Assembly: GCA_951812585.1 (NCBI GenBank)
Contig: OX638318.1
Coordinates: forward strand, 3,042,810 to 3,106,809
Length of the DNA: 64,000 nucleotides
From: Rhodothermales bacterium
Lineage (GTDB): Bacteria; Bacteroidota; Rhodothermia; Rhodothermales; Bin80
Reading direction: 5' to 3'
Positions 38,303 through 45,162 of this stretch are shown in pieces. The position numbers and the translations under genes are program-made. How positions within the stretch are numbered: the stretch's first letter is position 1; each line of letters begins with the position of its first letter. Under the pieces are notes generated by a model, which did not search any database, was not told the DNA's origin, and was given only the letters and a program-made list of their open reading frames with translations.

Positions 38303-39478
38303 TCAGTTGCGAGCCACGAACAGTTCGATCCACGCCGCGAAGAAGGGGTCTTCCAGCCGATGCCGAATCGATCCCATGGTTTCCTCCGGCCTCGCAATAC
38401 CGCTGTTGGTCAACTTCTGCACCGCGCTCCGCAGGCTGCTCAGGGGCAGTTCGTGTCTTTTGAGCGTGGCATGGGAAAACAGGCCGACTCCCTTGGTCTT
38501 CACCAGTGCCAGCAGTGCACGTTGCTGCACCGCCGTTAGCCGGTTCCACACCTGTGTGTAGAAAGGATCATCACGCCGGACCAGGCGATCCAGCACCTGA
38601 TTTACGTCGGTCGTGCTGAGAGTGCCTGACTGCTCCCTGGCGCGCGCGTGGTTCCAGCAGGAATGGGCCAGTCGTTGGACGTTATAGGGGACATCCTCGG
38701 CCAGGTCCAGAATGGCTGTGATGGCGTCTTCCTCCACATTGGTGCGCGCCGATTCGAATCCCGTGCGAATAAAGGTTCTGAAGTCATTGCGTGGCACGGG
38801 ACCGACAAAGAGTCGCGATCCGAGTCGATAAAAGGGACGCGCAGGGTCGCTGGTCATCTGGGACAACAGGCCGATCTTTGATCCTGAAAGCACGTAAGCG
38901 ACATGCCTGTGGCGCTGAATGGCTGCGCGCAGTTGTCGTTCAGCCGCCAATCCGTCGCCTGGACCTTGCAGCTTGAGCACATGCTGAAACTCGTCAATGA
39001 CTACCGCCACCTTGCGACCGCTGTCTGCCGCCATGCGATCTAGTCCATCTAGCAGCGTCGTAAGCATCATGGCTTCCTGCTTCCGGGGCTGCCTCGTGAT
39101 CGTTGCGCTGAACGATTGGTCCAGCGGATTGTAGTTGATCTCGGGACGGAGCGCGCCAAAGAACGTGCGCAGCTTTGCACCTGCGCGGCTGATCTTGCCG
39201 GCCAGGCGATCTGCAGCACCGGCCACCACGGATTCAGCCAATTGCCTGAGCGTAGGGAAGGCTTCGGCATCGCGCCTCAGAACTACGATTCCGCGTTCTT
39301 CTGCTTGTTCGGAAGCTGCGTGCAGGATTGAGGTCTTTCCGTGCCTGCGCGGTCCTATCATGAACAGTCGGCCCGCCTGTTCCATCGTGTCAAGGACGAC
39401 CCTTAACTCGTCCTCTCGGTCCACCAGTTCGGCGCCGGCGAGCTCCCTGCCATACTGAAACGGATTTCTTGAAGTCAT
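38303..39478 (-). CDS. P-loop ATPase, archaeal-type/STAND-like
   Basis: 391 residues. Walker A GPRRHGKTS is at about residues 42-50, Walker B VAVVIDEFQ ends at Glu163, and 'YVLSGSKIGLL' is a sensor-like strand. A C-terminal winged-helix part follows (about residues 300-380, 'VQQRALLALVKTKGVGLF', 'LRSAVQKLTNSGIAR'). This matches the archaeal ATPase/MalT-like STAND layout of an ATP-dependent switch. No partner gene is adjacent. A perfect 10-bp palindrome lies 20 bases upstream of the start. The role is unknown. Confidence 0.78.
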   Translation of the reverse strand: MTSRNPFQYGRELAGAELVDREDELRVVLDTMEQAGRLFMIGPRRHGKTSILHAASEQAEERGIVVLRRDAEAFPTLRQLAESVVAGAADRLAGKISRAGAKLRTFFGALRPEINYNPLDQSFSATITRQPRKQEAMMLTTLLDGLDRMAADSGRKVAVVIDEFQHVLKLQGPGDGLAAERQLRAAIQRHRHVAYVLSGSKIGLLSQMTSDPARPFYRLGSRLFVGPVPRNDFRTFIRTGFESARTNVEEDAITAILDLAEDVPYNVQRLAHSCWNHARAREQSGTLSTTDVNQVLDRLVRRDDPFYTQVWNRLTAVQQRALLALVKTKGVGLFSHATLKRHELPLSSLRSAVQKLTNSGIARPEETMGSIRHRLEDPFFAAWIELFVARN

Positions 39479-40367: not shown

Positions 40368-40648
40368 TGAACATCAGATTGCCGAGCAGGCGCTGGACCC
40401 GATGGGTAGCACAAGGTCAAGCCTGTCATAGAGGCACAATTCACTAAGGCTCTGGCGCTAGATTCCTAGCCAGTACGCCCACTGATGGGCACATTTTGGT
40501 GCCGTTGTCCGAAGGCGCAGATTCCTGGCGAGCCCATCCAGCGCGGGTCGAGATAGTATGACCATTCCAGCAGGCATTCGAATACTGGCCAGCTTCCGCC
40601 TGAATAGCTGGCCGAATTGCACCGGAAAGCGCAGTAGGTCAAATAAAC

Positions 40649-40664
40649 TGCTAAAAAATTAGCA
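40649..40664. promoter_or_regulatory. upstream BlaI-type operator
   Basis: TGCTAA-AAAA-TTAGCA, a perfect dyad. Its ends match the second dyad at 40710 (TGCTA-N6-TAGCA) in sequence and length. It sits just upstream of the predicted -35 box. Assignment to BlaI is inferred from position and duplication. Confidence 0.65.
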
Positions 40665-40671
40665 TTTGGCC

Positions 40672-40700
40672 TTGACCATAGGGAAACCTCGTCATATATT
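40672..40700 (+). promoter_or_regulatory. predicted blaI promoter
   Basis: TTGACC and TATATT are separated by exactly 17 bases; each differs from the sigma-70 consensus by one base. TATATTGG also resembles the Bacteroidota -7 element. It lies between the two matched dyads, 72 bases before the blaI ATG. Confidence 0.65.
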
Positions 40701-40709
40701 GGCCGTAAG

Positions 40710-40725
40710 TGCTAGTATGATAGCA
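40710..40725. promoter_or_regulatory. downstream BlaI-type operator
   Basis: TGCTA-GTATGA-TAGCA, a 16-base dyad with the same ends as the one at 40649, 61 bases centre to centre. It covers the predicted transcription start. Confidence 0.65.
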
Positions 40726-40771
40726 TTTATGCTGCGCATCGTTGAACCTTCTCCCGGTAAGGGTGGACGTA

Positions 40772-41164
40772 ATGAAGAAGAAGAAGTCTCCGATGGACCT
40801 GGGGCGTCGTGAGCGTCAGATAATGGCGTTTGTCTACCAGCACGGTCAGGCCACAGCCGCCGAAGTGATGGAGGGCATCGACAGCCCACCGAGTTATTCG
40901 GGGGTGCGGGCGATGCTGCGCATTTTGGAAGAGAAGGGCCATCTGCGGCACCGGCGGGAGGGACCGCGCTACATCTACACTCCGACGCTTTCTCCGGAAG
41001 AAGCAGGGCGTTCGGCCATGAACTACATGGTGCAAATGTTCTTCAACGGCTCGGTCGAGCAAGCGGTGGCGACGCTGCTCGAGCTGAAGAGGACAGATCT
41101 GACCGAGAGCGACCTCGACCACCTTTCCGGCTTGATTGAGCAGGCCAAACAACAAGGGCGATAG
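40772..41164 (+). CDS. BlaI/MecI/CopY-family repressor
   Basis: 130 residues. The winged-helix DNA-binding domain has 'DLGRRERQIMAFVYQHGQATAAEVMEGI' and 'YSGVRAMLRILEEKGHLRHRREGPRYIYTP', both diagnostic. The C-terminal half carries the dimer helix. ATG 40772 is chosen over an in-frame TTG at 40742 because the family sequence begins near here. The M56 gene starts 3 bases after its stop. Two matched dyads flank its promoter, so autorepression is likely. In BlaI/BlaR systems the partner protease relieves repression. Confidence 0.9.
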   Translation: MKKKKSPMDLGRRERQIMAFVYQHGQATAAEVMEGIDSPPSYSGVRAMLRILEEKGHLRHRREGPRYIYTPTLSPEEAGRSAMNYMVQMFFNGSVEQAVATLLELKRTDLTESDLDHLSGLIEQAKQQGR

Positions 41165-41167
41165 ACT

Positions 41168-43111
41168 ATGGATACGTTGATGGAATTCACTCATTTTCCC
41201 GCCAGCATGAGCTCCTGGCTGGTGCTGATGCTGACGTTGTTTGTCAAAGGCGCGTTGGTGCTTGCAGCTGCCGGCCTTCTGGTTTGCGCCTTGCGGCGCA
41301 GTTCGGCGGCCGTCCGCTATGTGGTGTGGTGCGCGGGGCTGTTGAGCCTGTTGGTGTTGCCGGTGCTTTCGGTGCTGTTGCCGCAGTGGCAGACGGGTCT
41401 TCTGCCGCAAGCGACCGTTCTGGTTCAGGAAGCTCCCCACGCGGCGCCACATGTGGCTCCGGCCTCTGTGCCGTTCCTGGATGTCCCGACGGCTGAGCCA
41501 GCCGTAGCTGCGCCGGTCGCTGTGGCGCCGCCGCAGGTCGGCCGGGCTGAGGTTCCTGCTGTGGGGGCCGCCTCAGGGCCCCTGTTTGCCGCGCTCGACT
41601 TTCACTGGTCGACATGGGTGTTTCTGGCATGGCTGGCCGGTCTGCTGTTCGTGCTGGTTCGGATGGCTATTGCGCACGCCGGGGTGCACCTGCTTGTCAT
41701 CCGTGGCACGATGGTGCAGGACGACGATTGGCGTCAGCTGGCCGGCGATGTGGCCAGCCGGCTGGGTATCCGACGGCCGGTGCGACTGCGCTGGAGCACG
41801 TGGACGGCGGTCCCGTTGAGCGTTGGCGTGTGGCGGCCTGCCGTCATCTTGCCAGAGGTGGCGAAGATGTGGGACGCGCAGCATCGCCGGACGGTGTTGC
41901 TCCATGAGCTGGCGCACGTCCGACGCCGCGATTGCCTGATGCAGCTGTTGACGCAAGTCGCCTGCGCTATCCACTGGTTCAACCCGCTGGCGTGGGTAGC
42001 TGCTCGCCAGTCGCGCATCGAGCGAGAGCGCGCTGCCGACGACATGGTGCTGTTGGCCGGCACGCAGGCCTCCACGTATGCCGAGATTTTGCTGGATACC
42101 GCCCGTTCGCTGCACTCGGCAAGATGGCCGCAGGTGGCGTCGCTGGCCATGGCGCGGCCTTCCCAGCTGGAGAGCCGCCTGATGGCCATTCTCGATCCCT
42201 CGTTGCGCCATCGGAGCCTGAACCGGGTCGCCGCTACCATGGCTGTCGTAGTAGCGGCATGCATAGTGCTACCGCTGGCCGTGCTCAATCCCGCCCAAGC
42301 CCAGCGTGATACCATCGTGGGGGCAGGCGACGTTGCTGTTGACACCGTGCCGCCACTCAACGATGCGCGCTTCACAGTTACCGAGGACATCAGGAGTGCT
42401 TCCGAAGTTGCCGTCGACATCGAGTCGAACTTCGTCCTCGATCCAGATGTCGTTACTGACGACAACATCGATACTAGCTACGACAGCACCCCAGTTACTG
42501 GCTCAATTTGGGAGAGTGCATCCATGGACACCCTTACCGCTGAGCAGCGCAAGATGCTGCGCAGCAAGTATGACATCGATAGCACGTTTATCCATGAGAT
42601 AGAAATGCTAGGCTTCACTGATCTGGGTGTAGACGAGTTCGTCGCCTTGGGCGAAAATGACATCGATCCAGACTATATTCGCGCTATACACGCTGCGGGC
42701 TTCACGGATTTGACCTTGAACGACCTCATCAACCTGGCCAGGTTTGAGATCGACCCGAGCTATATCCGGGGATTGCAGGCTGCCGGCTTCACGGACTTGA
42801 CCTTGAACGACCTCGCCAACCTGGCCAGGTTTGAGATCGACCCGAGCTATATCCGGGAATTGCAGGCTGCCGGCTTCACGGACTTGACCTTGAACGACCT
42901 CACCAACCTGGCCAGGTTTGAGATCGACCCGAGCTATATCCGGGAATTGCAGGCTGCCGGCTTCACGGACTTGACCTTGAACGACCTCACCAACCTGGCC
43001 AGGTTTGAGATCGACCCGAGCTATATCCGGGGATTGCAGGCTGCCGGCTTCACGGACTTGACCGTGAACGACCTCATCAACCTGGCCAGGAAAACTATGC
43101 GCCAAAAATAA
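41168..43111 (+). CDS. M56 membrane metallopeptidase with tandem C-terminal repeats
   Basis: 647 residues. Two N-terminal membrane segments (about residues 15-45 and 50-75), another near 150-170, then the zinc motif HELAH (residues 246-250) with 'RRRDCLMQLL' and 'ERERAADDMVL'. This is the BlaR1/MecR1 M56 domain. There is no penicillin-binding sensor. A hydrophobic segment near residue 355-375 leads into an acidic linker and about six 29-residue repeats of the form FTDLTLNDL.NLARFEIDPSYIR.LQAAG. It probably inactivates the neighbouring BlaI after sensing a signal through the repeats; that signal is unknown. Confidence 0.85.
   Translation: MDTLMEFTHFPASMSSWLVLMLTLFVKGALVLAAAGLLVCALRRSSAAVRYVVWCAGLLSLLVLPVLSVLLPQWQTGLLPQATVLVQEAPHAAPHVAPASVPFLDVPTAEPAVAAPVAVAPPQVGRAEVPAVGAASGPLFAALDFHWSTWVFLAWLAGLLFVLVRMAIAHAGVHLLVIRGTMVQDDDWRQLAGDVASRLGIRRPVRLRWSTWTAVPLSVGVWRPAVILPEVAKMWDAQHRRTVLLHELAHVRRRDCLMQLLTQVACAIHWFNPLAWVAARQSRIERERAADDMVLLAGTQASTYAEILLDTARSLHSARWPQVASLAMARPSQLESRLMAILDPSLRHRSLNRVAATMAVVVAACIVLPLAVLNPAQAQRDTIVGAGDVAVDTVPPLNDARFTVTEDIRSASEVAVDIESNFVLDPDVVTDDNIDTSYDSTPVTGSIWESASMDTLTAEQRKMLRSKYDIDSTFIHEIEMLGFTDLGVDEFVALGENDIDPDYIRAIHAAGFTDLTLNDLINLARFEIDPSYIRGLQAAGFTDLTLNDLANLARFEIDPSYIRELQAAGFTDLTLNDLTNLARFEIDPSYIRELQAAGFTDLTLNDLTNLARFEIDPSYIRGLQAAGFTDLTVNDLINLARKTMRQK
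42698..43045 (+). repeat. four near-identical 87-bp coding repeats
   Basis: Units begin at 42698, 42785, 42872 and 42959, with a partial fifth from 43046. They differ at only a few positions (mainly the residue after 'NDL' and the residue after 'YIR'). Older, diverged units lie just upstream. The length is a multiple of three, so copy changes keep the frame. Confidence 0.95.
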
Positions 43112-43690: not shown

Positions 43691-43713
43691 TTGCACCCTA
43701 ATTTAGGGTGCAA
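43691..43713. repeat. 11-bp perfect inverted repeat upstream of IS3
   Basis: TTGCACCCTAA and TTAGGGTGCAA are exact complements with one T between. It lies 61 bases before orfA. No T run follows. It may be an IS target hairpin or a transcription stop; no matching copy is seen beyond orfB. Confidence 0.55.
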
Positions 43714-43774
43714 TGGCAGTCTTCTGGTCGTTATTGTTGTGGGCGGTCTTTAGTCACGTAGATCGGCAAACGCC

Positions 43775-44179
43775 ATGGATTCAACGCTTCATGAGGGCCG
43801 TGCGGCACCATCGCAGGTTCCATCCACGGAGGTCGTACCGCGGGCAAAGCGCTGCAGATTCACCTTGGCCTATAAGCAGCGCATCGTCCGCGAAGCGGAC
43901 GCTTGTCAGGTACTCGGAGAGGTCGGCGCGCTGTTGCGCCGGGAAGGCCTTTACTCGTCTCAGCTGTCCAAGTGGCGCCAACAGCTCGACAGACCGGAGG
44001 CTGGAACGCAGTCCACCGACAAGGTGCACGCGCTCAGAAAGGAGCTGCGTGTGGTGCGCAAGACGCTTGCGCGTACGCGTCATGAGCTCAAGCAGGCCCG
44101 GACGGTCATCGAGATTCAAAAAAAAGTCTCTGGACTGCTTGGTCTCGAGATCCCCGACGAGCCCGGGCAACCAGGTTGA
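43775..44179 (+). CDS. IS3-family transposase OrfA (HTH)
   Basis: 134 residues. An HTH of the IS3/IS911 OrfA type is visible: 'RFTLAYKQRIVREADACQ', 'VGALLRREGLYSSQLSKWRQQ'. A Lys/Arg-rich leucine-zipper-like helix follows ('VHALRKELRVVRKTLARTRHELKQAR'), the usual OrfA oligomerisation part. The stop is followed two bases later by the orfB ATG, so they are not fused by a frameshift here. Confidence 0.85.
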   Translation: MDSTLHEGRAAPSQVPSTEVVPRAKRCRFTLAYKQRIVREADACQVLGEVGALLRREGLYSSQLSKWRQQLDRPEAGTQSTDKVHALRKELRVVRKTLARTRHELKQARTVIEIQKKVSGLLGLEIPDEPGQPG

Positions 44180-44181
44180 TT

Positions 44182-45162
44182 ATGCTGGAGGAACTCACCA
44201 AGGCCATGGACATGACGGCCGCGTGCCGCTACATGGAGATCTCCCGTAGTACCGGGCACCGATGATTGCATCCAGGGCCACGGAAGCCAAGGAAGCGGCA
44301 AAAGGGCCGGCTCGCCATCGGTGACGCGTGGCGCGCACAGATGCTGGCCCGGTTGTGTTCGGAGCGGTTCATGGATCTTCCGCCCCGGCAGATAGGGGCT
44401 ACGCTGCTGGATGAAGACCCCTATGGGTGTCACTGGCGCACGCTGTATCGTATCCTGAAAGAAAGCCGCGCGGTACGAGAGCGCCGTAACCAGCGGGTAC
44501 ACCCGCCCTACACCAGGCCGGAGCGGGTGGCCACGGCCCCCAACCAGTTCTGGTCCATGGACATCACCACGCTGCGCGGTCCCCGAAAAGGGACCTCCTA
44601 CAAGTGCTACGTGATCGTAGATATCTTCAGTCGGTACGTGGTGGGCTGGATGGTGTCCCCGTACGAGACGGCTGATCTGGCGGCCGATCTGGTCGTGACC
44701 ACCTGCGAGCGCCAAGGGGCCACAGCCGATCCACCCACGGTCCACACGGACCGGGGCGCGCCCATGACCGCCCGGACCTACATCCAGTTGTTGGGGCAGC
44801 TGGGCGTCACGCGCTCCTATGCGCGACCGTACCAGTCGAACGATAACCCGTACTCGGAGGCCCTATTCCGTACCGCCCAGTATCCTCACCTGTACCCGAG
44901 GCGGTTCGGATCTCTGGAGGATGCCCAGCAATGGGCCCGATGGTTCTTCGCATGGTACAACGAGATGTTCTACCACTCTGGCCTTGGGCTCATGCATCCC
45001 CGGACTGTGCCCTACGGCCATACCGAAGCCGTCAGAGTTGCCCGTCAGCAAGTCATGAACTCGGCCTACGCACAGCACCCGGAACGCTTCTTGGGTGGCA
45101 GACCACGCATACCGATGCCGCCAAGAGCCGTATGGATCAACAAGCCCAAACACACTACCTAA
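44182..45162 (+). pseudogene. IS3-family transposase OrfB, interrupted by TGA
   Basis: The DDE core is intact from 44266: 'NQFWSMDITTLRG' (Asp), 'VHTDRGAPM' (Asp) and 'NDNPYSEALFRTAQY' (Glu), then the C-terminal 'WYNEMFYHSGLGLMHPRTV'. The frame opens at ATG 44182 with 'LEELTKAMDMTAACRYMEISRSTGHR' and then hits TGA at 44263-44265, where relatives have Trp before 'LHPGPRKP'. The part from TTG 44266 is 298 residues and could in principle be made alone, but it would lack the N-terminal HTH-like stretch. Confidence 0.75.

Follow-up and report, generated by a model that had tools for sequence, protein, structure and literature searches.

A predicted TGCTA-type operator class at a BlaI–M56 operon of Rhodothermales and at BlaI loci of at least six phyla

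Introduction

The operators described for MecI and BlaI of staphylococci and Bacillus licheniformis follow the consensus RNATTACAWNTGTARKNT, written out as [A/G]NATTACA[A/T]NTGTA[A/G][T/G]NT (quoted in PMC5341023), and B. licheniformis has more than one of them (PMC3305447). CopY/CopR operators follow the consensus RNYKACANNYGTMRNY, and for CopY it has been proposed that a distal operator lies at the −35 box while a proximal one blocks the polymerase (PMC7253601); the same distal/proximal layout has been proposed for BlaI, in a passage of PMC7253601 that cites earlier work. For Clostridium thermocellum, DAP-seq and EMSA yielded the half-sites GTCTAT and GACTAT for BlaI_0696 and BlaI_1845 (PMC8457756). 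Here, we analyse a 64-kb stretch of a Rhodothermales genome (the window), in which a blaI-type gene and an M56 metallopeptidase gene follow a promoter bracketed by two dyads, and compare it with BlaI loci of related and distant bacteria.

Results

A promoter between two matched dyads

The predicted operators, the promoter and the operon comprise the following features, in window coordinates:

40649..40664, no strand: operator dyad 1 (distal, predicted), TGCTAAAAAATTAGCA, 7 nt between its end and the −35 box
40672..40677, plus strand: −35 box TTGACC, from the promoter scan
40695..40700, plus strand: −10 box TATATT after a 17-bp spacer, from the promoter scan; TAnnTT in relatives
40710..40725, no strand: operator dyad 2 (proximal, predicted), TGCTAGTATGATAGCA, covering the expected transcription start
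40772..41164, plus strand: blaI-type repressor gene (Penicillinase_R, PF03965, 3.3e-27)
41168..43111, plus strand: BlaR1-type M56 metallopeptidase gene with HELAH motif and C-terminal repeats (PF05569, 3.2e-32)
42692..43090, plus strand: 87-bp tandem repeat, 4.6 copies, 97% matches, encoding the 29-residue repeats of the M56 C-terminus

The first-pass annotation had described two 16-base dyads with shared TGCTA...TAGCA ends 61 bases apart, one above the −35 box and the other at the start site, with near-consensus promoter boxes at 17-base spacing between them. This description is confirmed throughout: both dyads have perfect TGCTA/TAGCA ends, their starts are 61 bp apart, dyad 1 precedes the −35 box, and dyad 2 begins 9 nt after the −10 box and lies over the expected start. 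The single promoter site that the scan returns in 40500–40800 is TTGACC-17-TATATT, with 10 of 12 matches. Across the full 16 bases each dyad has six of eight matched pairs, so that the symmetry consists of the outer five bases plus one inner pair. No terminator-like site was found. The exact form TGCTA-N6-TAGCA occurs twice in the window, as dyads 1 and 2, and at four places across the 3.2-Mb genome, where the two dyads are the sole exact pair; the pattern TGYTAN6TARCA-N35-60-TGYTAN6TARCA has a single match there. On the minus strand, a STAND/AAA-type ATPase gene (38303–39478) lies upstream of the region that holds the blaI promoter.

The repressor and its M56 partner

The repressor scores 95.6 bits against PF03965 (cut-off 22.6), the domain covering its whole length, and its recognition helix is SYSGVRAMLRIL. 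Judged by its closest orthologues, the gene most likely starts at the ATG at 40772; an in-frame TTG lies upstream at 40742. The proximal dyad is perfect in two same-family relatives, and its position relative to the start codon is kept (−60 and −61). Orthologues within the family reach 80% identity, a search of its own genome with this BlaI matched no gene but blaI itself, and the nearest same-genus genome has zero BlaI matches.

Peptidase_M56 is the only Pfam domain found in the window's M56 protein, with no transpeptidase or penicillin-binding domain, and the protein reaches 93 bits against NCBIfam blaR1_generic, whose cut-off is 400. The absence of a penicillin-binding domain leaves beta-lactam sensing without support. 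In nearly all homologue loci, blaI is followed by a gene for an HExxH M56-like protein; all ten partner proteins tested have M56 and no transpeptidase domain, and the partners of some relatives end in HEAT, TPR or coiled-coil C-termini. The 29-residue repeats of the window's M56 protein are near-identical and those of a second genomic copy more diverged, so the array looks recently expanded. Directly downstream of the M56 gene lies an insertion element (43713–45162) with an rve integrase (298 aa ORF), which may have cut the blaI–M56 operon off from its former downstream genes.

Few sites elsewhere in the window's genome

A genome search for TGCTA-N6-TAGCA at other genes, as the first-pass annotation had proposed, turned up a truncated M56 copy at genome position 1885597 and no further target; the operator thus occurs only at blaI and at this truncated second copy. 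There (L157, C1:1880000–1889000), a perfect dyad 1 lies within a partial duplicate of the blaI promoter, 96% identical over 123 bp and joined straight to a 92%-identical M56 gene. The duplicate lacks the stretch matching window 40708–41403, which holds dyad 2, the entire blaI and the beginning of the M56 gene. Through the retained dyad, BlaI may control the truncated M56 gene in trans, or the copy may be decaying. TonB-receptor-like, beta-propeller-like and transposase-like genes lie near the duplicate. A site at 239002 (TGCTAGCCCGGTAGCA), with a G/C-rich centre, was rejected as an operator and treated as chance. A one-mismatch search gave no sign of a hidden regulon in this genome, with 28 sites versus 135 in the control.

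Conservation across BlaI loci

We examined the regions upstream of 129 BlaI homologues from related genomes and a bacterial genome collection. In the unbiased form TxyTA-N6-TAy'x'A, in which x and y are free and complementarity is required, these regions hold 105 dyads, and the reversed control holds 0. The form TGYTA-N6-TARCA gives 92 sites at 61 of the 129 loci (reversed control 0, inside genes 0, Markov-resampled 0.12 per set); about half of the loci are without a perfect TGYTA dyad, some of them bearing other site classes or imperfect sites. Going by the titles of their records, the genomes with TGCTA sites belong to Bacteroidota, Acidobacteriota, Gemmatimonadota, Planctomycetota, Verrucomicrobiota and Poribacteria. 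Conservation upstream of orthologous blaI genes, on which the first-pass annotation had staked its reading, is borne out.

The paired pattern occurs at 8 places in 296 genomes of the phylum, each immediately upstream of a BlaI homologue, against 3 places in 3 genomes for its reversed control. Perfect pairs of Rhodothermales are spaced 54–62 bp apart and imperfect ones 52–61 bp. The TTG of a −35 box follows the first dyad within a few nt in 16 of 16 far-spaced pairs, two of which come from groups other than Rhodothermales; it is extended to TTGAC in 12 of the 16, and a TAnnTT-like element follows. Even the nearest relatives do not all keep the pair: the distal dyad is missing in one same-family relative (L006) and degraded in another (L007; 8 of 10 bases, 60 bp away), the proximal dyad being perfect in both. 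Outside Rhodothermales, dyads are mostly 18–21 or 43–45 bp apart, or single. At L037, L039, L041, L054, L058, L077, L120 and L121, the dyads are 18–21 bp apart, about two helical turns, and do not flank a promoter.

Site class follows repressor clade

The BlaI clade of the window's protein has TGCTA sites, with TGTTA in some members, and another clade has TACTA. The recognition helices differ accordingly: PPSYSxVRAxLRIL goes with TGCTA, AYTTVMTVM with TACTA and AYSTVLTML with TATTA, while at TGTTA sites the helix is mostly VRTLLRIL. A tree built without the recognition-helix columns places one change at base 2, and on it the G2 proteins group in a single supported clade that excludes MecI and B. 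licheniformis BlaI. Site class tracks repressor clade, which ties the site to BlaI itself without naming the residue that reads it.

Within Rhodothermales, a second BlaI clade (paralogues, L127–L150) has the helix AYTTVMTVM and TACTA-N6-TAGTA 30–90 bp upstream of its genes. At L029, a single TGGTAAAAAATTACCA dyad at −55 lies upstream of a BlaI with the helix SNSAVRATIRI and is possibly a further site class. A one-residue code in which Arg46 reads G2 was rejected: it fits the sampled set perfectly, yet it is confounded with ancestry, given the one change at base 2, and MecI also has Arg at the aligned position, though the published MecI/BlaI consensus has A. We likewise set aside a link between Thr47 and T3, as all 6 of the 6 TGTTA proteins have Thr47 but two TGCTA proteins have it too, and 2–3 independent pairs give no power.

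A predicted envelope regulon in related genomes

The stricter pattern TGCTARNWWNYTAGCA was searched over 114 genomes of Rhodothermales, and genes were called beside the sites away from blaI. With three same-family genomes lacking a detected BlaI left out, 36 strict sites were counted, 24 of them in front of genes from recurrent or efflux families. DUF5916 outer-membrane-type genes account for 11 of the 36, in 10 genomes and 7 genera; as a genome holds only roughly 5–15 DUF5916 matches (10 in the window's), this share is far above chance (rough binomial P 1e-10, collapsed by genus). Secreted proteins, their signal peptides judged by eye, follow at three sites for HEAT-repeat genes, three for proteins with repeats like the window's M56 C-terminus (E down to 9e-27; repeats of 29–33 residues) and two for a small secreted family. 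Erythromycin-esterase-like genes have two sites, MacB/FtsX permeases two and an HlyD gene one, and one more MacB/FtsX site was found in an acidobacterium. The two groups with located sites are:

L183:806–1984, L191:1033–1980, L244:950–1996: secreted proteins with M56-like repeats, operator 4–20 bp before the called start
L185, L186, L188, L193, L194, L196, L222, L229, L235, L236, L237: 5' ends of DUF5916/CBM9 genes with TGCTA-N6-TAGCA, in ten Rhodothermales genomes

The sites at exported-protein genes predict an envelope regulon in these related genomes. In twelve genomes of other phyla, the majority of sites are at blaI genes.

Discussion

With a probability of about 0.9, we read the two dyads as operators of the adjacent BlaI-type repressor, through which the blaI–M56 operon would repress itself, and TGCTA-N6-TAGCA as the general operator of this repressor clade. 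The autoregulation layout that had been claimed from the window is supported by the Penicillinase_R match of the adjacent gene and by the two putative operators around its promoter. How might such a locus work? Each 16-bp dyad would be occupied by one BlaI dimer, which would make contact through its winged helix-turn-helix. The dimer on the distal dyad would border the −35 box on its upstream side and that on the proximal dyad would cover the transcription start, so that RNA polymerase would be excluded. We infer the release step as well: an envelope signal would be received through the C-terminal repeats of the membrane M56 protease, which would then proteolyse BlaI and so derepress the operon.

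Could the dyads be something other than BlaI operators? That they are chance palindromes, an RNA hairpin or a terminator is hardly credible and already contradicted, since their conservation far exceeds every control; the A/T-rich dyad 1 could fold, yet it lies upstream of the promoter and outside the transcript, and nothing terminator-like was found. It is very improbable that they belong to another regulator that happens to control blaI, as the sites recur at blaI in six phyla and their class changes with the BlaI clade. The two protein families are paired in one operon as in staphylococcal blaI–blaR1, but a beta-lactam resistance system of that kind is very improbable here, because the M56 partner lacks the transpeptidase sensor domain and reaches 93 of the 400 bits of the NCBIfam BlaR1/MecR1 cut-off, no beta-lactamase gene was seen adjoining the operon, and the M56 C-termini of relatives are in some cases HEAT, TPR or coiled-coil instead.

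Of a different order is the view that the predicted BlaI sites mainly serve a wider envelope regulon, with autoregulation as mere feedback and the regulon of the window's genome shrunk to the blaI operon. We consider this rather probable, as the 24 of 36 strict Rhodothermales sites at recurrent or efflux families, 11 of them at DUF5916 genes, speak for it, although the window's genome has its operator only at blaI and the truncated copy despite ten DUF5916 matches, and most sites in the twelve genomes of other phyla are at blaI. Alongside the proposed self-repression by BlaI at the window locus, we tentatively suggest a separate and widespread branch of BlaI–M56 signalling, made up of the TGCTA-type BlaI proteins, which would control the cell envelope rather than beta-lactam resistance. 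Its targets in Rhodothermales would be outer-membrane DUF5916 proteins, MacB/HlyD efflux, esterases and secreted repeat proteins. Some of these repeat proteins share the repeats of the sensor's own C-terminus, and a secreted protein of the regulon might therefore aid the sensor or compete with it.

The family names, penicillinase repressor and BlaR1, suggest beta-lactam resistance, and the label "BlaI" in these phyla should not be taken to imply it. The predicted operator can be read at a large set of BlaI–M56 systems of environmental bacteria and yields candidate target genes through which their function can be put to the test; the spread of the site across phyla and the predicted envelope regulon add to its interest.

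In conclusion, how does the locus compare with the systems described so far? With MecI/BlaI it shares the Penicillinase_R repressor, operators at the promoter, the M56 protease partner, predicted autoregulation, and a 16-base frame with T4-A5 in each half-dyad. The first-pass annotation was right that the TGCTA half-site is not of the TACA type: although T4-A5 is common to it and the ATTACA/TACA consensus, the window dyads do not contain the classical TACA/TGTA core (ATTACA half-site), and the TGCTA class has G2 for A2, a pyrimidine (C or T) at base 3, and no C6-A7, with A or G prevailing at base 6 and A or T at base 7. The window locus also differs in having no divergent beta-lactamase or mecA and a sensor without a penicillin-binding domain. 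CopY/CopR belongs to a related repressor family and likewise has two operators, one at the −35 box (as proposed) and one proximal; in contrast, the window dyads have no TACA core, the BlaI C-terminus has no CxC metal motif, the protein scores 48.3 bits against NCBIfam CopY_TcrY (cut-off 121.95), and the partner is a protease and not a copper exporter. The C. thermocellum BlaI proteins resemble the window's in their BlaR1 partners, non-TACA half-sites containing CTA and autoregulation (predicted here), and also in regularly spaced sites for four protomers and very small regulons, whereas their GTCTAT inverted repeats lie 5 nt apart, with another base 2 and a 17-base frame, and are not TGCTA. 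We found no description of a TGCTA operator class with BlaI in the literature searched. The layout and its principle are already known, and TGCTA-N6-TAGCA is a distinct operator type within a known regulator family.
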